28,837 bases of DNA from a virus: IMG/VR virus record IMGVR_UViG_3300020183_000355, positions 1 to 28,837 of that record; one strand, 5' to 3'. Positions 12,545 to 28,837 of this stretch are shown here, one piece after another (the first letter of the stretch is position 1; every line of letters starts with the position of its first letter). Made by a program: the position numbers and the translations under genes. Below the pieces are notes generated by a model. It ran no database searches and was not told where the DNA came from. It was given only the letters and a program-made list of their open reading frames with translations.

Positions 12545-13143
12545 ACCCGTCTCCAACACCAAAACAAACACGAGAACTAAAGTCTCTGTTGGAAGAAACT
12601 ATCGCAGGATTGGGTGGAACCGACCAATCGTATATTCAACTATTAAAATATTTGAACAGCATAGGTGAACTACGCACACCATCACGACTCATGGTGGGTC
12701 AAATGGTGTTTTTTAAATATAAACCACAAGACGACAGATTTTTAAGGTCTGCCAAAGCATATGATGTGTTTCCGTTGGTAGTAATCACTAAAGTTCACAA
12801 CGACGGGTTTGAAGGGTTGAACCTGCACTACATTTCTCAAAAATGGAGACGGCTGCTGTTTGACGCTATGGAAACCAAACTCCCAATGAAAAGGGCAGGA
12901 GATGATTCCGCGACTCGTCTAGGAGTGTCGTATTCTGTTCTAGACGGCCCAAGAAAATTTGCATTCTTTAAGCCTTGCTACCGACGATATGTAATAGGGG
13001 GATTGAGAAAAAGACCCATAGTTATACCTTCTGAATTTTGGGATGTTTTAGTAGATGTTGACCTTGCTCTGTTTGTGAAAGGCAGAAAAATGGGTATTCA
13101 CCGTATGTCTTACACATCAACTATACAGTCAGGAAACCGTTAA
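12541..13143 (+). CDS. Conserved T4-like phage protein of unknown function
   Basis: 200 aa. The segment VGQMVFFKYKPQDDRF, followed by YDVFPLVVITKVHNDGFEGL and NLHYISQKWRRLLFDAM, is a pattern I associate with a conserved, mostly uncharacterised family in marine T4-like phages. I cannot assign a proven role. It is flanked by an ATGA overlap with gp4 and a TAATG overlap with the tail-tube-like gene, so a head-tail joining or structural role is plausible. There are no membrane segments, and the fold looks mixed alpha/beta. Confidence 0.8.
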   Translation: MNPSPTPKQTRELKSLLEETIAGLGGTDQSYIQLLKYLNSIGELRTPSRLMVGQMVFFKYKPQDDRFLRSAKAYDVFPLVVITKVHNDGFEGLNLHYISQKWRRLLFDAMETKLPMKRAGDDSATRLGVSYSVLDGPRKFAFFKPCYRRYVIGGLRKRPIVIPSEFWDVLVDVDLALFVKGRKMGIHRMSYTSTIQSGNR

Positions 13144-13910
13144 TGTCTAGCATTCCATCCAACATCAACGAAATGATGCAGAGCATCGTGCGTGACAGTA
13201 TTGCGTATGTAAACCGATTTGAGGTTGAAATTCTTCCACCACCTGGCGTAAATATTGGTCTGTCTCCACTACTGTCCAAATCTCTGACATTAAGATGCAA
13301 CTCTGTGTCTGTTCCAGGACGGTCACTCACAACACAAAATTACAGATTCTATGGCCCGCAACGACAGATGCCATATGAGCCGCTGTATTCAGGCGACTTA
13401 GCAATATCATATCTTCTATCAAGCGACCTTCGTGAGCGAGTATTTTTTGAAATTTGGCTAAACGGCATATGTGACCCCCAAAACTACAAGTTCTCCTTTT
13501 ATTACGAGTACGCCACAACCATGCAAATACGAATGCTAGACAAAACAGACACAGTGATTTACACCGCTGTGGTTGAAGAAGTGTATCCCAAGCAAATCGG
13601 AGAAATTATGATGGGGTACGAAAAAGATAACGAGATGGCAACACAAGACATAACTCTTGCATATAGAAAATACACTCCTATATTCTCAAGCAATTCTGTT
13701 CCACTTCCTGTTCCTTCATTGTCGCCACAACCAACTCAACCAAATCCAAATCAAGTCAGCCCAATATTCAACCAATTCCTACCACCCGTATACGGCAATC
13801 CAAGGGACCAAGGGCCGAGACAGTGGTTCGAACGCGACCCATCATCTGGCAGAATTGTGAGACGAGGTATCGACGGCTCTGTAAACGGAGTAATCAACGG
13901 TCGTCCGTAA
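13143..13910 (+). CDS. Tail-tube-fold protein (gp19/gp54 family)
   Basis: 255 aa. Residues ~18-185 have the tail tube signature: YVNRFEVEILPPPG, LTLRCNSVSVPGRSL, YGPQRQMPYEP, LLSSDLRERVFFEIWLNGIC, and EEVYPKQIGEIMMGYEKDNE followed by ITLAYRKYTP. The last ~65 residues are a Pro/Asn/Gln-rich tail not found in T4 gp19 (163 aa). It could be the major tube protein gp19 or the tube initiator gp54; these share the fold, and no other tube gene is visible in the window. Its position just before the gp26-like chaperone and the tape measure mirrors the tube-chaperone-tape order of other long-tailed phages. Confidence 0.85.
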   Translation: MSSIPSNINEMMQSIVRDSIAYVNRFEVEILPPPGVNIGLSPLLSKSLTLRCNSVSVPGRSLTTQNYRFYGPQRQMPYEPLYSGDLAISYLLSSDLRERVFFEIWLNGICDPQNYKFSFYYEYATTMQIRMLDKTDTVIYTAVVEEVYPKQIGEIMMGYEKDNEMATQDITLAYRKYTPIFSSNSVPLPVPSLSPQPTQPNPNQVSPIFNQFLPPVYGNPRDQGPRQWFERDPSSGRIVRRGIDGSVNGVINGRP

Positions 13911-13952: not shown

Positions 13953-14663
13953 ATGAACAAACTGAAACTAGCGTCTGCACAATTGCCAACCTATACCATG
14001 ACTCTGCCTGTGTCTGGATTAGTGGCAAAATATAGACCATTCGTTGTGAAAGAAGAAAAGGTATTACTGGTTGCTGCACAGTCTGGTGATATGAATCAGA
14101 TTGTGGACGCAATGCGTAACATCATATCTGCCTGTACAGACGGAATGGTGGACACCAAAAAACTGTGTACTGCTGATGCGGAATACGCTTTCTTGCAGAT
14201 TCGTATGAAGTCTGTTGGTGAAGAAGTAAAGCCACAAATCACATGCTCCAAGTGCCAACACAAAGCAAACATCAAAATAAACTTGGCTGATGTTAAGGTG
14301 AAACGGGTAGAAAAAGAAAATATTGACTCCACAGTTCCAATCAGCGATTCACTATCACTCATATTAAAGTATCCGTCTATGCACGATATTGACTACAGCA
14401 AGTCAGAGGTTGACGCTATTTTTGGTGTGGCAAAAGACTGTATTGATGCTGTTGTACTAAACGACGAAGTTCACAAAAAAGAAGACATAGACTCTAAAGA
14501 ACTAGCAGACTTTGTGGACAACTTGCTACCAGACCAGTTTGAAAAGATTATGCAGTATGTGAAAACCACACCAGAACTCCACTACGCTTTTAAATACACC
14601 TGCCCTAGTTGTAAAGAGAAAGTGGAAATGGAGGTGAAGTCTGTGGCTGATTTTTTTCAATAG
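13953..14663 (+). CDS. 26: gp26-like baseplate hub / tail assembly chaperone (T4_baseplate family)
   Basis: 236 aa from the ATG at 13953, chosen because GGAG lies 7 nt upstream; a TTG 15 nt earlier has no such site. T4 gp26 is a baseplate hub assembly protein of 208 aa. Visible features are the N-terminal LPTYTMTLPVSGLVAKYRPF and EEKVLLVAAQSGD, and a probable zinc ribbon of CxxC pairs: CSKCQHK near residue 97 and CPSCKEK near residue 219. The frame stops at TAG 14661-14663, immediately after a T7 run where a second frame opens (see the frameshift entry). Located between the tail-tube-fold gene and the tape measure, as lambda G is. Confidence 0.87.
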   Translation: MNKLKLASAQLPTYTMTLPVSGLVAKYRPFVVKEEKVLLVAAQSGDMNQIVDAMRNIISACTDGMVDTKKLCTADAEYAFLQIRMKSVGEEVKPQITCSKCQHKANIKINLADVKVKRVEKENIDSTVPISDSLSLILKYPSMHDIDYSKSEVDAIFGVAKDCIDAVVLNDEVHKKEDIDSKELADFVDNLLPDQFEKIMQYVKTTPELHYAFKYTCPSCKEKVEMEVKSVADFFQ

Positions 14664-14687
14664 CACTCTGCCACAACACACTGGCAG
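14630..14687 (+). promoter_or_regulatory. Candidate programmed -1 ribosomal frameshift site
   Basis: Three elements line up. (1) GGAGGTGA at 14630-14637 is fully complementary to the typical 16S rRNA 3' end and lies 13 nt upstream of the slip site. (2) T TTT TTT at 14651-14657 is a -1 slippery heptamer in the correct phase (GAT TTT TTT CAA TAG). (3) A perfect 6-bp hairpin, CTGCCA at 14668-14673 and TGGCAG at 14682-14687 with an 8-nt loop, starts 10 nt downstream. The zero frame stops at 14661; the -1 frame opens at 14651 just after a TGA and runs to 14845. This arrangement resembles the stimulated -1 site of E. coli dnaX. Confidence 0.8.
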
Positions 14688-14845
14688 CGTACTACCAGAC
14701 TAATTTTTCACTAATTCATCACCATAAGTACTCTCTTTCAGAAATTGAAGAGTTGGTTCCTTGGGAGCGTGAAGTATACATAAATTTGTTAATTCAATTC
14801 TTGAAAGAAGAGAAGGAACGGGTAAAACGGCAAGGAAACCAGTAA
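14651..14845 (+). CDS. 51: gp51-like extension, expressed as a gp26-gp51 fusion by -1 frameshift
   Basis: A 65-codon open frame with no ATG or GTG start. It becomes readable at the T7 run and encodes 62 residues after the slip, giving a 297-aa fusion with gp26. The peptide reads as a real conserved domain: IALCHNTLAAYYQTNFSL, HHHKYSLSEIEELVPWERE and VYINLLIQFLKEEKERV, the pattern of phage tail chaperone C-terminal domains and of what I recall as the short gp51-type hub assembly proteins of marine T4-like phages. The stop TAA touches the tape measure ATG. A missing T in an assembly would give the same picture. The gene symbol is tentative. Confidence 0.75.
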   Translation, partial: FFSIALCHNTLAAYYQTNFSLIHHHKYSLSEIEELVPWEREVYINLLIQFLKEEKERVKRQGNQ

Positions 14846-16972
14846 ATGGCAAAAAAAGGTCCAGGTAGAGGTAGGCGAGGTACTGTTCCACGGGTTGGTG
14901 GACGATTTGCTTCAACAAAAACCGCTACTTCTGCTCCTGCTGTTGTGCCCTCTGTGCCACAGACACCGCCACAAGTAAAAAATGCTGAAGCCGAAGTCGA
15001 AAAGAAAATCGGCATTTTGGAAGCCTTGCTAGAAAAACAAAAACAACTATCGGGTGGAGACACCGAACTGTCTGCTACCGTTTTGGGCAAAGGCGGAACA
15101 AAAGGTGTTCGTGCACAAATTGAAGAATTGGTCAGAGAAAATCGTGAGCGTCTAAAAGACCTTGACGACCCAAACAACGCCGCAAACTTTGCAGTAATTG
15201 AATCTGCTCTTGCCTTGTCAGAACGAGCAGTTCGTTCCAAAGACAGAAAAGAACAAGTAGACATATACAACAAACTAAAATTCATCCGAGAGGTTGCTGA
15301 AAAAACAACGGGTGACAAATCTGATGTAACCAAAAAAATAGCAGATATCATAAAACCAGTTGAAGATGCTTTGCGAAAAAGAACTGGTTTTGCTGCATTT
15401 GGAAAAGAACGATTGACTACTTCATTAAAGGCTGCACCCGAAGCAATTGTTCGTCAGATTCCTCTAGTTGGTGGCTTGCTTGGAGATTATCTACAAGAAA
15501 AGCGAGCAGGACGAGAAGAACTAGAATCATATGCTGGAAGACGAATTGAAAGCATTTCTCAAGCAGGCAGCAGACAGAATGAATTGGAACGAATTCTTCA
15601 GGGCAAAGGTGGCGGAAGAATGCCTCCCTTTGCAGGGGCTACCAGTTTAGGCAGTATGGTGGGCGGTGCTGCTGGAGCAGGACTAGCAGGATTGGCTACA
15701 GGCGAGTCAACCACACTAGGGCAAATTGCTGCCGATGTTCGTGCCATCAAAGAAGGTGTTGTTGGCAAGAAGTCTGGTACAGAAGCATTAAGAGAAAAAG
15801 AAAAAGCCATGAAAGACATGGCTGGTGTTGCCAAAGCAGACGAAAAACAAAAAGGACTGTTTGGTGGACTTGGAAAAACTCTATCAGGCATGTTGGGTGG
15901 TGGCGGTCTGCTAGCAGGATTGGCTGGCATGTTTGGAATGGGCGGTGGAGCCGACACCGCAGCAGGACAACCTGGAATACTGTCTCAAGCAACCGACTGG
16001 GCAGCAAACAAAGCAACTGATTTTGGACTCAAAAAAGGATGGCAAGGTGTTAAAGGACTAGCATCTAAAGGTTTGCAAGGAGCCAAATCTATGCTTGGGT
16101 TTGGTGGAAGGGCAGCAGAAGGTGCTGCTAGCGGAATGGCTAGTGCTGCATCTAGTGTTGCAAAAACAGGAGGGTCGTGGTTGGGTTCAGCGTGGGAAGG
16201 TATAAAATCTGCGGGCAGTTCTGCTCTACAAGCAGGAAAAGCCGTTGCTGGAGAAGCAGCAGCGGTGGCAAAAGCAGTAGCAAGCCCTGTTGAATTCTTG
16301 AAAGGAAATGCTGGGAAAATATTGGGAGGGCTAAAAACACTCGGCCCAATCACTGCTGCAATAGAAGGAATTATTGGTGCTTTCAACATCTATGGAATAA
16401 AAAACGACCCAACAATTCCACCCGAACAAAAGAAAGAAATGATTGGTGCTGAAATAGCCAAACGATTTGGTGCGGCTGTTGGTGGTGTTATTGGTGGTGG
16501 GCTTGGAACTGCCATTGGCCCTGTTGGGACAGTTTTAGGTGGAGTGGCTGGTGCTATGGGTGGAGAATGGGTAGGTAATCAACTTGCAGAACTAATTGGG
16601 CCTAAAGGAATATACGATTTTGCAGCATCTATCCCAGGTGTTGGAAGCCTAATAGAAGTAGGCGAAACACCAAAAGAGGGAGCAGAGGCGACAAAACCAA
16701 CGACAGGCACAATTTCTCCCACTCCAACAGCAGCAACACCCGCAGGGCAACAAGCAAGTGCTATGGAAATGAATCGTCGTGGTGTGGAAGAAGTTCGTGA
16801 TTACGCAACAAAACAAGCACAAGCACAAGCGTCATTTGTAGCACAAACACGAGCAGCATCTCAAACCATGTACAATCAAAGCAACACCGTGGTCAACAAC
16901 TACAACGACGACTTGCGTGTTCGCAACAGTGAAGCAACTCTCAAGACTATGGAGAGAAGCACACTCCGATAA
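14846..16972 (+). CDS. 29: Tape measure protein (T4 gp29-like role)
   Basis: 708 aa. Residues 1-30 are basic and Gly-rich (MAKKGPGRGRRGTVPR). Residues ~45-170 are charged helical coiled coil (EAEVEKKIGILEALLEKQKQ and similar). Residues ~260-590 alternate Gly/Ala-rich hydrophobic segments (GSMVGGAAGAGLAGLATG, MLGGGGLLAGLAGMFGMGGG, AVGGVIGGGLGTAIGPVGTV) as in phage tape measures. The C-terminus ends with NNYNDDLRVRNSEATLKTME. Tape measures set tail length, fill the tube lumen and are escorted by the chaperones encoded just upstream. Length compares with 590 aa for T4 gp29. AAGGA sits 9 nt before the ATG. Confidence 0.83.
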   Translation: MAKKGPGRGRRGTVPRVGGRFASTKTATSAPAVVPSVPQTPPQVKNAEAEVEKKIGILEALLEKQKQLSGGDTELSATVLGKGGTKGVRAQIEELVRENRERLKDLDDPNNAANFAVIESALALSERAVRSKDRKEQVDIYNKLKFIREVAEKTTGDKSDVTKKIADIIKPVEDALRKRTGFAAFGKERLTTSLKAAPEAIVRQIPLVGGLLGDYLQEKRAGREELESYAGRRIESISQAGSRQNELERILQGKGGGRMPPFAGATSLGSMVGGAAGAGLAGLATGESTTLGQIAADVRAIKEGVVGKKSGTEALREKEKAMKDMAGVAKADEKQKGLFGGLGKTLSGMLGGGGLLAGLAGMFGMGGGADTAAGQPGILSQATDWAANKATDFGLKKGWQGVKGLASKGLQGAKSMLGFGGRAAEGAASGMASAASSVAKTGGSWLGSAWEGIKSAGSSALQAGKAVAGEAAAVAKAVASPVEFLKGNAGKILGGLKTLGPITAAIEGIIGAFNIYGIKNDPTIPPEQKKEMIGAEIAKRFGAAVGGVIGGGLGTAIGPVGTVLGGVAGAMGGEWVGNQLAELIGPKGIYDFAASIPGVGSLIEVGETPKEGAEATKPTTGTISPTPTAATPAGQQASAMEMNRRGVEEVRDYATKQAQAQASFVAQTRAASQTMYNQSNTVVNNYNDDLRVRNSEATLKTMERSTLR

Positions 16973-20105: not shown

Positions 20106-20106
<1 letters not shown>
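18370..20106 (+). CDS. Repetitive beta-rich virion structural protein
   Basis: 578 aa. Residues ~80-390 consist of loosely repeated strands with the recurring phrase VSGATAxGVT (VSGATAIGVTVGTV, VSGATAVGVTFSTV, FTGATAEPIY), alternating with LPV/FPI turns, as in beta-helical or decorated fibres. Residues ~410-460 are helical (SNFDTKIAQLKTNSDFLVAT). The last ~110 residues form a compact domain (CAVGIRIKVSRIATG, YTMYHGDEMFFEVDNINKIK) common in phage fibre and decoration proteins. GGAG lies ~11 nt before the ATG. No T4 equivalent is recognised. It overlaps the next gene by one base (TGATG). Confidence 0.8.
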
Positions 20107-21023
<917 letters not shown>

Positions 21024-22248: not shown

Positions 22249-22443
22249 TTACACCGATTGCAGCCACTGATGCTGTTGCTTGCGAGCCTCCCGCTTGGCA
22301 GCAGCGTACAGTCCCTCGGTGAAGCCGCAGTGCTTGCCGTCATCGTAACCCCGTGCGTAGCCGATGTGATACAGTTTCAGCAGTCCTGCAACAAGTGCAG
22401 CCCCTGCTCCGATGGCGTAAGATATGAGTTCTAGTGTTTCCAT
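22249..22443 (-). CDS. Small predicted membrane protein
   Basis: 64 aa. One transmembrane helix at residues ~7-25 (ISYAIGAGAALVAGLLKLYH), then a hydrophilic tail with GYARGYDDGKHCGFTEGL and a basic segment KREARKQQ. No convincing ribosome site precedes the ATG. It lies downstream of the tRNA array and could be co-transcribed with it. It is not recognised; a holin-like or host-envelope role cannot be excluded. Confidence 0.6.
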   Translation of the reverse strand: METLELISYAIGAGAALVAGLLKLYHIGYARGYDDGKHCGFTEGLYAAAKREARKQQHQWLQSV

Positions 22444-22495
22444 ACTGGTATGTTGGCTTGATGACGATGTTGAACTGTTTCTTTACAATCAAAAA

Positions 22496-22578
22496 TGGGA
22501 GCGGAGGGATTCGAACCCCCGTAGCCGAATGGCAACAGATTTACAGTCTGCCCTCGTTGTCCGCTTGAGTACACTCCC
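22496..22578 (-). tRNA. tRNA-Tyr (GTA)
   Basis: 83 nt. Acceptor GGGAG/CTCCC, anticodon loop CTGTAAA with GTA (plus-strand 22542-22544), a long class II variable arm with a GCC/GGC stem, and T loop TTCGAAT. Discriminator A; CCA is not encoded. Last tRNA of the cluster in transcription order, 1 nt after tRNA-Gln. Confidence 0.95.
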
Positions 22579-22579
22579 G

Positions 22580-22650
22580 TTCCTTCGCTTGGATTCGAAC
22601 CAAGACAAGGAGGACCAAAATCTCCTGTGCTACCGTTACACCACAAAGGA
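22580..22650 (-). tRNA. tRNA-Gln (TTG)
   Basis: 71 nt. Acceptor TCCTTTG pairs with CGAAGGA (one T-G pair), D arm GTGTAACGGTAGCAC, anticodon loop TTTTGGT with TTG, T arm CTTGG/CCAAG. Discriminator A; no CCA encoded. Confidence 0.93.
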
Positions 22651-22651
22651 A

Positions 22652-22724
22652 TGGCGAAGGTTGGAATCGAACCAACGACTTATCCCGTATGAAAGGATTG
22701 TTCTGCCGACTGAACTACTTCGCC
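22652..22724 (-). tRNA. tRNA with CAT anticodon (elongator Met, or Ile2 if lysidine-modified)
   Basis: 73 nt. Acceptor GGCGAAG/CTTCGCC, anticodon stem ATCCT/GGGAT around loop TTCATAC. It lacks the three G-C pairs of initiator tRNA, so it is not tRNA-fMet. Whether the C34 is modified to lysidine cannot be read from the sequence. Discriminator A; no CCA encoded. Confidence 0.92.
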
Positions 22725-22726
22725 AA

Positions 22727-22798
22727 CTGGCTCGGCTGGATTCGAACCAGCAACCTATTCGTTAACAGCGAATCGCACTGCCGTTGTGCTACGAGCCA
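22727..22798 (-). tRNA. tRNA-Asn (GTT)
   Basis: 72 nt. Acceptor TGGCTCG/CGAGCCA, anticodon stem ATTCG/CGAAT around CTGTTAA with GTT, T arm GCTGG/CCAGC. Discriminator G, as in bacterial tRNA-Asn. No CCA encoded. Confidence 0.94.
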
Positions 22799-22804
22799 AA
22801 GCAG

Positions 22805-22891
22805 CGGGCAAGGTGGGATTCGAACCCACGATGCGATTACTCGCATACAGCATTTCCAATGCTGCTCCTTCAACCGCTCGGACACCTGCCC
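22805..22891 (-). tRNA. tRNA-Ser (GGA)
   Basis: 87 nt. Acceptor GGGCAGG/CTTGCCC, anticodon loop TTGGAAA with GGA, long class II variable arm with stem TGCGA/TCGCA, T arm GTGGG/CCCAC. Discriminator G. No CCA encoded. Confidence 0.94.
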
Positions 22892-22896
22892 CAAAT

Positions 22897-23061
22897 TCAG
22901 ATGCCCTTTTCACTCTTTACCCAAGCAGGAAGACGGTCAACCGCTTCCAACTTGCGGAGAGTGTCCTTCTTGGCATTCAGCAAACCCGCTTGACGGGTCT
23001 TCTTACGAGCCTCGTACTTACGCTTGCGACGACGATTCAGTTCACGAAACTTGTTTATCAT
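22897..23061 (-). CDS. Small basic protein embedded in the tRNA cluster
   Basis: 54 aa from the ATG at 23061, which has AGGAG 8 nt upstream. A longer reading from 23112 would run into tRNA-Glu and is rejected. The protein is strongly basic and helical: FRELNRRRKRKYEARKKTRQ, then LLNAKKDTLRKLEAVDRL. It lies between tRNA-Glu and tRNA-Ser, ending 5 nt before the latter, so it is almost certainly on the same transcript. Not recognised; an RNA- or DNA-binding role is plausible from charge alone. Confidence 0.72.
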   Translation of the reverse strand: MINKFRELNRRRKRKYEARKKTRQAGLLNAKKDTLRKLEAVDRLPAWVKSEKGI

Positions 23062-23082
23062 TACGATTCTCCTAGAGACAAG

Positions 23083-23155
23083 TGAGCCTACGGGGATTCG
23101 AACCCCGGTCAAGGGCTTGAAAGGCCCCTATCCTTGACCACTAGACGATAGGCCC
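23083..23155 (-). tRNA. tRNA-Glu (TTC)
   Basis: 73 nt. Acceptor GGGCCTA pairs with TAGGCTC (one G-T pair), D arm with GTCTAGTGGTCAAGGAT, anticodon loop CTTTCAA with TTC, T arm CGGGG/CCCCG. Discriminator A; no CCA encoded. First tRNA of the cluster in transcription order. Confidence 0.95.
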
Positions 23156-23764: not shown

Positions 23765-23787
23765 CTCCTAAACTATTTAGGAGTTTT
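23765..23787. terminator. Hairpin overlapping the stop codon of the upstream gene
   Basis: CTCCTAAA-CTA-TTTAGGAG is a perfect 8-bp stem followed by TTTT on the plus strand. On the minus strand, where the genes run, there is no U tract, the stem contains the TAA stop of the 286-aa gene, and it also holds CTAAATAG plus the AGGAG of the 45-aa ORF. It may be a weak terminator, an RNA 3'-end stabiliser or a regulator of the small ORF. Confidence 0.5.
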
Positions 23788-24637
23788 CTGCGTCTAATTC
23801 CTCAAAAATTGTAATCCACTTGGGGTCTTCACCACGACGCAGATACGCAGCCTTTGCAAAACTCCACTCTTCACGCTCTTGAATGCGGTATCCGCTCTTG
23901 TGCTTCTTGGCGTATCTGCGAGCACCCTCTTGGTCTTCAAAATACTCGTAGTTGCCTTCGTCGTCCATTGCTCCCCAAAGACCACTAGAGGTCTTCCACA
24001 CATCACCTGCCTTGTGCTTGTGTGCAGCAGACGCACTTTCACCACTCTTTTCTTGCTCACCGCCCTGCTGTGGTTCGTCCTTGACATTGAAAACAAACTT
24101 CTTGCCGCTGTGTGGGCCTTTGCGTAGTTGCGAGAAGAACTGTACCACCTTGTGCTTGGCTAGTTCAAGGTTGTTTTGTCCTTCGCCCTTCTTGAATCGC
24201 ATAAGCACCTTGCCAATACCAGCACTTTCGTTAGTGCCGATATAGTAAAAGTCTTGGTCGTTCTTGTACATGACCGAGTGTTGCTTGTAGTGGCGACCCA
24301 ACTTGACTATTTCTTCCTTCTTGATGTTGGGAATGAGCAGACTCAACTCCTCAACCACACCACCCTCTTCTTGGTAGCCGCCCTTCATCTCAATGTAACC
24401 GTATCCCATGTCGCGGACACGCTTCTTGAGGTCATCGTGGAGTTTCTTGTTCTCTTCACGAGAGTTTTCACCACGGAAAGCACTCACAATACCAAAATCT
24501 TTGCCGTCGTCTTCCACATACTGGAACACGCGAGACAGTTTGGCTTCAACCAGAGGGGTTTCAGCGGCTTCGCGGCGTGAAATCCACTCGTTTAGTCCGT
24601 TTTGGTCAAGGTACTGTGAGAATTTCTTCATTTTCAT
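23777..24637 (-). CDS. Probable capsid-targeted internal protein with DUF3293-like domain
   Basis: 286 aa. The N-terminus MKMKKFSQYLDQNGLNEW resembles the capsid-targeting sequence of T4 internal proteins (MKTYQEFIAE type). LNE at residues ~15-17 fits the L/I-x-E rule for the gp21 prohead protease. Residues ~35-170 (DFGIVSAFRGENSREENKKL, GYIEMKGGYQEEGG, IKKEEIVKLGRHYKQHSVMY) resemble DUF3293. Residues ~195-215 are a Gln/Glu/Ser/Lys linker and the C-terminus is a basic and aromatic domain. A CTAAATA late motif lies 25 nt upstream and AGGAG directly before the ATG. I infer a protein packaged in the head and injected with DNA; targeting is not proven. Confidence 0.75.
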   Translation of the reverse strand: MKMKKFSQYLDQNGLNEWISRREAAETPLVEAKLSRVFQYVEDDGKDFGIVSAFRGENSREENKKLHDDLKKRVRDMGYGYIEMKGGYQEEGGVVEELSLLIPNIKKEEIVKLGRHYKQHSVMYKNDQDFYYIGTNESAGIGKVLMRFKKGEGQNNLELAKHKVVQFFSQLRKGPHSGKKFVFNVKDEPQQGGEQEKSGESASAAHKHKAGDVWKTSSGLWGAMDDEGNYEYFEDQEGARRYAKKHKSGYRIQEREEWSFAKAAYLRRGEDPKWITIFEELDAENS

Positions 24638-26043: not shown

Positions 26044-27036
26044 TCAAATAGTCTCGGGACTATTTGAGAAACGAATATCGTGAAGGTCAGCAATTTGTCC
26101 GTAAGACATTTCACGAACCATATACATTTTGAACTCGCCCAAATCTTTAAATTGAACCAGTTCTCCCTTGTGAAATACTTTATACACACCAACCCGTTGC
26201 AACACATCACACTTGTTGATAATTATTTCAGTACACCCCGACAACTGCACCGCTGAAATCAACTTGTCTAGATTCAGCCAATTTGCAAGCCGCTTGCGAC
26301 CTGTGGTTGTGCCGTACTCTCCACCTTCGCGGATTAGTGCGTCAATCTGCGGGTCTTCCCAAAGTGTTTCAGGGAACAAAGGGTCAACTCCACTCTTGGT
26401 GTCGTAGGCTTTGGCAACACCGATTAGTCGCCCGATTCGCTTCGGACTAAAACCAATAGAGCAAGCCCCATAAGGAAGAGTAGTGCTAGAAGTAACATAC
26501 GGGTAGTCTCCGTGGTCAATGTCTAACCATACGCTCTGTGCTCCTTCGCACAAAATCTTGCCTGACATTTCTCCGTTCCAAATCCAATCAGATGCAAAGC
26601 AGTCTATTGCTCGTATGCCTCTACGAAGCATTTTGTCTGAATAGCACGGAGCAATGCCTTGCCCAGTGGTTCCCAAATGCCCCAAGTGCTGTTTGTCGTG
26701 TGTGATATGGGCTTCAGTAATTATATGAACATTAGGATGAATTTTGACAAGCGAGGTATCAAATCCTGCTTGTTTTAATTCACGAATCTCGACAAAGAAC
26801 TTGTCGGGATTGATTACACATCCTGACCCAATCAAGCATGGCTTACCTGCGAAAATACCTGAAGGCACAATATGGGTCTTGTGTTTCTTGCCGTCTACCC
26901 ACACGGTATGCCCTGCGTTTGGGCCGCCGTTCCATCGGCACACCCAATCGTATTGGTGAGCCATTGCTGCGGACACCTTGCCCTTGCCTTCGTCACCCCA
27001 CGCAAGCCCGTAAACCACATCTGCAATATCAATCAT
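26044..27036 (-). CDS. purA: Adenylosuccinate synthetase, short form (PurA family)
   Basis: 330 aa, about 100 shorter than E. coli PurA and similar to archaeal and phage forms. PurA converts IMP, aspartate and GTP to adenylosuccinate. Visible motifs are the P-loop and catalytic AWGDEGKGK (the E. coli Asp13 equivalent, Asp15, is present), GGPNAGHTVWVDG with the catalytic His, the IMP-binding GTTGQGIAPCYSDK, the ARRG-like LRRGIRAIDCF, and the aspartate-loop motif GTTTGRKRLANW. The C-terminal guanine-binding region has INKCDVL, the NKxD signature. The ATG overlaps the previous gene's end by 8 nt. Same strand as guaC 1.1 kb upstream. Confidence 0.93.
   Translation of the reverse strand: MIDIADVVYGLAWGDEGKGKVSAAMAHQYDWVCRWNGGPNAGHTVWVDGKKHKTHIVPSGIFAGKPCLIGSGCVINPDKFFVEIRELKQAGFDTSLVKIHPNVHIITEAHITHDKQHLGHLGTTGQGIAPCYSDKMLRRGIRAIDCFASDWIWNGEMSGKILCEGAQSVWLDIDHGDYPYVTSSTTLPYGACSIGFSPKRIGRLIGVAKAYDTKSGVDPLFPETLWEDPQIDALIREGGEYGTTTGRKRLANWLNLDKLISAVQLSGCTEIIINKCDVLQRVGVYKVFHKGELVQFKDLGEFKMYMVREMSYGQIADLHDIRFSNSPETI
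26045..26066. other. Hairpin overlapping the purA stop codon
   Basis: CAAATAGTC (26045-26053) and GACTATTTG (26058-26066) form a perfect 9-bp stem with a 4-nt loop. The purA TGA (26044-26046) lies at the base of the stem. The minus strand lacks a U tract after it. Probable transcript-end or RNA-stability element. Confidence 0.55.
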
Positions 27037-27541: not shown

Positions 27542-27557
27542 AGTAATCTCCGTTTAG

Positions 27558-27630
27558 TGCCCCCGACAGGACTTGAACCTGTAACCTACCGATTAAAAGT
27601 CGGCTACTCTACCAATTGAGTTACGGAGGC
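27558..27630 (-). tRNA. tRNA-Lys (TTT)
   Basis: 73 nt. Acceptor GCCTCCG pairs with CGGGGGC (one T-G), anticodon stem CCGA/TCGG around CTTTTAA with TTT, T arm ACAGG/CCTGT. Discriminator A; no CCA encoded. It stands apart from the main cluster, between two protein genes. Confidence 0.95.
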
Positions 27631-27864: not shown

Positions 27865-28119
27865 CTATCGCTTGAACAGATACTTTAGTCTGCTCCAAAA
27901 GTTTTCATACGAGGGAAAAGCCGTAACTCCACGCTTCAAACTGTCCTGCCATCCACAGCCGTCCGTTTCACGCATATACTTCAGAATGCTTGCAGGGGGA
28001 TACCGACCACTCACATCTCGCCACAAGTGGCATTCATCCGACAGGATACGAATCTGCCGAAGCAGTTCTTCCTGCCGTTGCAGCAACCGCTCTTGAAACT
28101 CGCGGCCACACAAACACAT
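27865..28119 (-). CDS. Small unknown protein overlapping guaC
   Basis: 84 aa. The ATG at 28119 overlaps the guaC stop as TGATG, indicating coupled translation. N-terminal coiled helix FQERLLQRQEELLRQIRIL, Cys-containing segments ([19 protein letters not shown]) and a basic aromatic C-terminus NFWSRLKYLFKR. Not recognised. Confidence 0.65.
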   Translation of the reverse strand: MCLCGREFQERLLQRQEELLRQIRILSDECHLWRDVSGRYPPASILKYMRETDGCGWQDSLKRGVTAFPSYENFWSRLKYLFKR

Positions 28120-28837
28120 CAGTCATTGCCCCACACAGTATTCAGTTGACGATTCACCCGAATAAAAGTTGTGCACTTGGGCAAATCCTTGAGACGAGCC
28201 GCACCCACATAGGTGCAAGCCGACCGCACACCGCCAAGTATCTGCTGCATCACACCGTCCACGCTGCCCACACAGGGAACCACTACGCTCTTGCCTTCAG
28301 CGGCACGATAGGTAGCCACGCCCCCTGAGTGCTTGTTCATGGCTTCAGCAGAACTCATGCCGTAGAACACCTTGCCGTCTTCGGTGGTTTCACCTGCGGC
28401 TTCGTCTGTTCCTGCAAACAGTCCACCAACCATAACAAAGTCCGCACCCGCTCCAAAGGCTTTGGCTACATCGCCGGGACAGGTACACCCACCGTCCGAA
28501 AGCACATAGCCACCTAGTCCGTGTGCAGCATCAGCACACTCCATGATGCACGACAGTTGCGGGTAGCCAACACCTGCAACCTTGCGTGTCGTGCAGACTG
28601 AACCTGGGCCGATACCAATCTTGACAATGTTTGCACCGGCTAGGATTAGTGCTTCGGTCATTTCTCGTGTCACCACATTTCCTGCAATCAGGATATGGTT
28701 GGGAAAAGTTTTGCGAATAAACTCCACATACTGCACAAACTTTTCGGTGTATCCGTTGGCTACATCAAGACAAATGAATTGGATATAGCGGTGGGCATCA
28801 AGAATCTGTCGTGCCTTCTGCAATTCATTCATGTTGG
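28119..28837 (-). CDS. guaC: GMP reductase (GuaC), N-terminus outside the window
   Basis: At least 239 residues, matching the last two thirds of E. coli GuaC (347 aa); the frame stays open through the right edge, so the ATG at 28832 is internal. GuaC reductively deaminates GMP to IMP with NADPH. Diagnostic motifs are [25 protein letters not shown], the active-site loop [11 protein letters not shown] with the catalytic Cys, the GMP-specific GVGYPQLS and [31 protein letters not shown], and FYGMSS with [14 protein letters not shown]. Closer to GMP reductase than to IMP dehydrogenase because of ECADAAHG-type and YGMSS segments. No truncation is seen within the window. Confidence 0.93.

Follow-up and report, generated by a model that had tools for sequence, protein, structure and literature searches.

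A very probable programmed -1 ribosomal frameshift in the tail chaperone genes of an uncultured T4-like phage

Known frameshift cassettes and tail assembly chaperones

The -1 frameshift of E. coli dnaX combines an upstream SD-like word, the slip heptamer A AAA AAG and a downstream hairpin, and phage lambda shifts at the slip sequence GGGAAAG. For T4-like phages, the tail assembly chaperones TAC-N and TAC-NC were reportedly identified by Vladimirov and colleagues as gp26 and gp51, respectively. Both T4 proteins are listed as hub assembly chaperones (PMC3004832). The title of the study by Vladimirov, Gautam & Davidson (2022, Virology 566:9-15; cited in PMC10885494) attributes TAC genes to T4-like phages and suggests a non-frameshifting mechanism, and a statement in PMC12846349 credits to the same study the poly-T slippery sequences of T4-like TAC-N genes. 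In Vandenendeviridae and Andersonviridae, the TAC gene undergoes a -1 frameshift at a GTTTTT motif that is conserved through a family (PMC12846349). In cyanophages, gp51 was described as having only about 20% of the usual length, with similarity in its C-terminal part (Sullivan et al. 2010, PMC3037559), a shortness that we attribute to frameshifting.

In this work, we analysed an IMG/VR virus record of 28,837 bases carrying the structural genes of a T4-like phage from an uncultured lineage; this whole stretch is hereafter called the window. Its TAC genes belong to the same families as those of other T4-like phages (PF12322/phrog_150 and phrog_634), with the same junction. The three-part layout of dnaX is found in the window as well; dnaX differs in being an unrelated gene, with an A AAA AAG slip and a short product made by the shift, and in the window's family the SD-like word is not always present. 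The order tail tube gene, short chaperone, shifted C domain and tape measure is that of lambda G/GT, unlike the slip itself, which is T TTT TTT in the window and GGGAAAG in lambda. The synthesis of a short and a long chaperone by a -1 slip near the end of the short form would likewise be shared with lambda gpG/gpGT (Levin 1993; Xu 2004). The poly-T -1 slip at the end of TAC-N is common to the window and to Vandenendeviridae and Andersonviridae, which are other phage families with another slip motif.

T4 itself departs from this arrangement, its genes 26 and 51 being separate and on opposite strands, whereas the window has overlapping frames with a slip run. T4 gp26 matches phrog_150, i.e. the same PHROG as the TAC-N of the window, and T4 gp51 (249 aa) aligns along its length with phrog_150 and, at the end, with phrog_634, which makes it a natural in-frame TAC-NC. 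The end of T4 gene 26 keeps Phe-Phe, encoded as gag TTC TTT, and the slip run is gone; we conclude that T4 lost the slip where the in-frame gp51 fusion made the shift unnecessary. These T4 features agree with the title of the Vladimirov study. Another uninterrupted arrangement was seen in Campylobacter phage CJLB-14 (L101, 1428-2168), where TAC-N and TAC-C form one protein of 246 aa (phrog_23772, also phrog_150 and phrog_634).

Searches against solved G-type chaperones gave no significant match, whether of sequence (PDB sequences) or of fold. The search of the PDB with the TAC-N fold returned no significant hit, HK97 gp13 (2OB9) appearing as a weak match at rank 6 (E about 1, probability 0.15).

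The locus is a well-supported further example of a known mechanism, poly-T -1 slips having already been reported in T4-like TAC-N genes. An earlier sequence-only reading had proposed that this T4-like lineage shifts frame as other long-tailed phages do; this is supported as a frameshift reading, given the conserved heptamer and the -1-frame position of the gp51 domain described below, and is less new than implied, having already been published for T4-like phages. The hairpin and the shifted SD-like word of the window may be undescribed in T4-like TAC genes, and the clade-by-clade difference of stimulators around an invariant slip site is possibly unreported.

Organisation of the locus in the window

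The features of the locus are the following:

13143..13910, + strand: tail-tube-fold gene, upstream neighbour (phrog_45 tail tube, 8.9e-35)
13953..14663, + strand: gp26-like TAC-N gene, 236 aa, frame 0, ending ...SVADFFQ* (PF12322 T4_baseplate, 6.2e-60; phrog_150, 5.8e-60)
14630..14637, + strand: internal SD-like word GGAGGTGA, proposed stimulator (anti-SD duplex -13.6 kcal/mol)
14651..14657, + strand: slippery heptamer T TTT TTT, proposed -1 shift site (T TTT TTN in phase at all 306 scorable loci and at 18 isolate loci)
14661..14663, + strand: frame-0 stop TAG, 3 nt past the heptamer
14668..14687, + strand: hairpin CTGCCA/TGGCAG with an 8-nt loop, proposed 3' stimulator (z -3.4 vs shuffles)
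14651..14845, + strand: -1 frame TAC-C (gp51 C-terminal domain), 64 codons and TAA (phrog_634, 2.6e-28)
14846..16972, + strand: putative tape measure gene, 708 aa, its ATG adjoining the TAC-C stop (weak tape-measure PHROG matches, 4e-5 and 1.9e-4)

The sequence-only reading had described a perfect anti-SD complement, an in-phase T TTT TTT, a -1 frame closed by TGA before the run and a zero frame closed by TAG after it with about 10 nt in common, a 62-codon downstream frame with neither ATG nor GTG encoding a conserved domain, and a perfect 6-bp hairpin. Every one of these elements is present and the observation was confirmed base for base. The position that it gave, between a tail-tube-fold gene and the tape measure, was borne out by phrog_45 upstream and by the weak tape-measure matches downstream. 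Gene order is similar in phiM12, but one small gene intervenes; its large downstream gene is annotated as resembling tape measure proteins. The gp26-like gene starts at the ATG at 13953 and is homologous to PF12322/phrog_150 over its full length, and its AlphaFold2 model (mean pLDDT 89) matches predicted gp26-like proteins of many myoviruses.

We consider with high confidence, from the sequence and its comparison, that this tail assembly chaperone locus uses a programmed -1 ribosomal frameshift. Most ribosomes would translate the gp26-like TAC-N and terminate at the TAG at 14661. A minority would shift back one base on T TTT TTT by tandem tRNA-Phe slippage, which the preceding SD-like word and the following hairpin would promote, and would read on into the gp51-like helical domain, giving a TAC-NC fusion of about 297 aa. 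By analogy with lambda gpG/gpGT, both forms would cover the tape measure, whose gene follows immediately, and recruit tail tube or hub subunits to it. What the analysis establishes is the sequence architecture, the selection on the slip site, the -1 frame and the hairpin, and the homology to gp26/gp51; the occurrence of slippage, its frequency (i.e. the ratio of the two products) and the chaperone role are inferred.

Other parts of the window were annotated in passing. Seven tRNA genes (Tyr, Gln, Met, Asn, Ser, Glu and Lys) lie on the - strand at 22496-23155 and 27557-27630; the + strand ORFs at 22424-23075 are antisense to most of this array and are probably not genes. On the - strand, an adenylosuccinate synthetase of 330 aa (26044-27036; PF00709, 7.8e-84), shorter than typical bacterial PurA, retains the WGDEGKGK motif and is thus probably PurA-like rather than of the PurZ type seen in Z-DNA phages. 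Close by, another purine gene, with an IMP dehydrogenase domain (28119-28832, - strand; PF00478, 2.2e-62), runs to the contig end. The N-terminal half of the product of 23777-24637 (- strand) matches the S-adenosylmethionine lyase family PF23780 (2.3e-11), making this a possible counter-defence gene. A 305-aa protein encoded at 20106-21023 (+ strand) has a long Pro/Ala-Glu repeat tail and a GGGGYGY end, and gave no Pfam match.

The slip site, the -1 frame and alternative explanations

The last frame-0 codons of the gp26-like gene, GAT TTT TTT CAA TAG, place the T7 run at 14651-14657 in the phase T TTT TTT, as a -1 slip requires. The -1 frame is closed by the TGA at 14648-14650 and frame 0 by the TAG at 14661-14663, leaving an overlap of 10 nt. 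Runs of seven Ts are in themselves no rarity (the window has 6, for 14.9 expected); the signal is the in-phase placement at the junction and the conservation in relatives, not the run itself.

Relatives were gathered from IMG/VR with the gp26 protein alone, i.e. the downstream domain played no part in the selection. The scorable relatives amounted to 306 loci, corresponding to 166 distinct junctions and 96 clusters at 80% identity; they are not independent, and cluster counts lessen but do not abolish the effect of kinship. An in-phase T TTT TTN was found within the last codons in 306/306 loci (all 166 distinct ones), and also in 18 isolate loci from cyanobacterial, Vibrio, rhizobial, Aeromonas, Pseudomonas and Methylophilales phages. 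The latter include cyanophages P-SSM2, P-SSM7, S-TIM4, S-SKS1, S-CRM01 and S-CREM2, Methylophilales phage Melnitz, Vibrio phages ValKK3 and K566, rhizobial phages phiM12, RHph_I34 and LG08, Aeromonas phages 65 and G2, and Pseudomonas phage Milchi. The slip site is under selection: the base before Phe-Phe is a T in 166/166 distinct junctions, though the residue that it belongs to varies (Asp, Ser, Asn, Ala, Gly or Phe), and T is the third base in roughly a third to a half of cases elsewhere. As a control, other Phe-Phe pairs of the same genes take the T TTT TT form in 4/62 cases. The frame-0 stop lies exactly 3 nt past the run in 124 of the 166 distinct relatives and directly after it in 29. 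Three details of the window do not generalise to its relatives: the TGA abutting the run, the overlap of exactly 10 nt and the perfect GGAGGTGA.

In the window, the -1 frame is open from 14651 to the TAA at 14843-14845, i.e. 64 codons from the slip run and 62 after FF. It encodes FFSIALCHNTLAAYYQTNFSLIHHHKYSLSEIEELVPWEREVYINLLIQFLKEEKERVKRQGNQ, which is homologous to gp51 (phrog_634, 'baseplate hub assembly catalyst', 2.6e-28). Past the slip, this frame remains open for 41-69 codons in the 306 loci, the three shortest reaching contig ends. Over the first 165 nt, it has no stop in 69/69 sequences, and frames 0 and +1 have stops in all of them; dN/dS in the -1 frame is 0.12-0.13, compared with values of about 1 or higher for frames 0 and +1 (69 sequences). 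Purifying selection on the C domain is confined to the -1 frame. In the protein alignment, FF and a P-W-E-R motif are invariant among the aligned loci, and the conserved domain begins at the slip's own FF. Its AlphaFold2 model comprises three helices (pLDDT 85), and a fold search with it gave no significant match.

Could the C domain instead be a separate protein that has GGAGGTGA for its ribosome-binding site and starts at a non-standard codon or through coupled re-initiation? Public annotation does give gp51 as a gene of its own in cyanophages, and in 92/166 distinct relatives an ATG, GTG or TTG of the -1 frame lies no more than 13 codons from the slip, where separate initiation would be possible. 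The isolates ValKK3, RHph_I34 and S-CRM01 (L085, L086 and L087) further show a stop-start overlap (TAATG or TGATG) past the slip; it is a possible start of their C domain, and both routes might coexist there. However, such start codons are variable, being absent in the other 74/166, whereas the slip is invariant. The C frame of the window has neither ATG nor GTG, only three internal TTGs (read by eye), and the start of the conserved domain at FF, inside the slip, also argues against a separate protein. The sequence-only reading had named relatives with separate genes and no slippery run as counter-evidence; separate genes were seen only in lineages such as T4 and Tulanevirus, and T4 gene 26 has lost the slip run. 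We regard separate initiation as very unlikely to account for the locus.

A homopolymer error of sequencing or assembly, with a true run of eight Ts and gp26-gp51 as one uninterrupted gene, would draw on the error-prone nature of homopolymers and on the in-frame fusions known in some lineages (T4 gp51, Campylobacter phages). Against it, runs of seven bases, or T6 followed by C, A or G, occur in 306/306 contigs and in the 18 isolates, the frame-0 stop is conserved directly or 3 nt past the run in most relatives, and a separate contig (L004) is 100% identical. Neither an in-frame fusion nor an eight-T run that closes the frame was found in any scored relative; with the heptamer in all 306 and the gp51 domain in the -1 frame, such an error is therefore excluded in practice. 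Readthrough of the frame-0 TAG, for which one may cite the stop 3 nt past the run, would stay in frame 0, which has several stops, and not reach a domain lying in the -1 frame, and a decaying C-domain remnant is excluded by the dN/dS of 0.12, so that neither deserves serious credit.

Proposed stimulators and their variation among relatives

Under the frameshift reading, the SD-like word and the hairpin are proposed as stimulators, both being under synonymous constraint in parts of the family. Lying 13 nt before the T7 run, the word GGAGGTGA complements the 16S anti-SD perfectly. The window contains no second copy, shuffling predicting 0.8 over its whole length, and no other stretch of gp26 forms an equally strong anti-SD duplex. 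Over the 96 clusters, mean anti-SD complementarity in the last 200 nt of gp26 peaks at -15 to -17 from the slip (-5.7 vs a mean of -0.6 kcal/mol), a peak partly due to a conserved Glu-Gly. GAG is preferred over GAA in the SD-like word (31/50 vs 526/2008 elsewhere, p 3e-7), which therefore indicates a constraint beyond the protein. The clade of the window has the word 13 nt upstream, and most of the sister clade has at best a weak one; cyanophage-type relatives carry GGAGGG about 8-9 nt from the slip run. A loss of SD use by the hosts of the sister clade was not supported as the cause of the missing word, start codons there using SD at least as strongly.

The 6-bp hairpin pairs CTGCCA (14668-14673) with TGGCAG (14682-14687). 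The 43-nt fold has -12.2 kcal/mol (z -3.4), and 0/200 shuffles were equally stable. Selection on the hairpin is seen in near relatives: in 40/40 distinct ones, the region past the slip folds more stably than alternative synonymous codings of its peptide (mean z -2.8), and z is near zero in control stretches 45 and 78 nt further downstream. Pairing differs between clades, with CTGCCA/TGGCAG in that of the window and GCCCTC/GGGGGC in the sister clade, where two hairpin pairs show compensatory synonymous C-G to G-C double changes. Across the whole near clade, the stem register of the window gave no covariation signal, since this pairing is restricted to the window's subclade. For the sister register, paired cells and covariation score lie above all shuffles, with few pairs changing on both sides, and covariation support for this hairpin is moderate.

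Among distant relatives, a hairpin beyond coding constraint was detected in 3/14 contigs and 5/16 isolates. As only part of them have a significant hairpin or SD-like word, neither element is essential across the family. A trade-off between SD strength and hairpin strength is not claimed, the correlation having fallen from rho -0.45 (70 sequences) to rho -0.17 (96 clusters, p 0.09).

The dnaX-like three-part cassette proposed from the sequence is thus real in the window, without the SD-like word being part of a conserved core; of its elements, the slip heptamer is retained by all 306 relatives, and the word and the hairpin are conserved only in part. The slip site is common to the family, and the cassette has been put together around it at the level of the clade. 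Tentatively, the slip site and the fusion might be invariant in the superfamily while stimulators turn over, the shift rate being held by interchangeable parts and T4 having replaced the whole device by separate genes. The pattern behind this suggestion is a closely spaced word in cyanophage-type relatives, a strong hairpin in the sister clade, and the 13-nt word with a differently paired hairpin in the clade of the window.

The mechanism itself is established. What the locus adds concerns annotation: in many cyanophage and other T4-like genomes, the 'gene' listed on its own as gp51 very probably encodes the latter half of a frameshift product, so that records closing gp26 at its stop codon or assigning a separate start to gp51 are likely to be in error there. 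Loci having the slip with an SD-like word, with a hairpin, with both, or having lost it with separate genes, form a natural series in which the setting of a frameshift ratio, and its replacement during evolution, could be measured.
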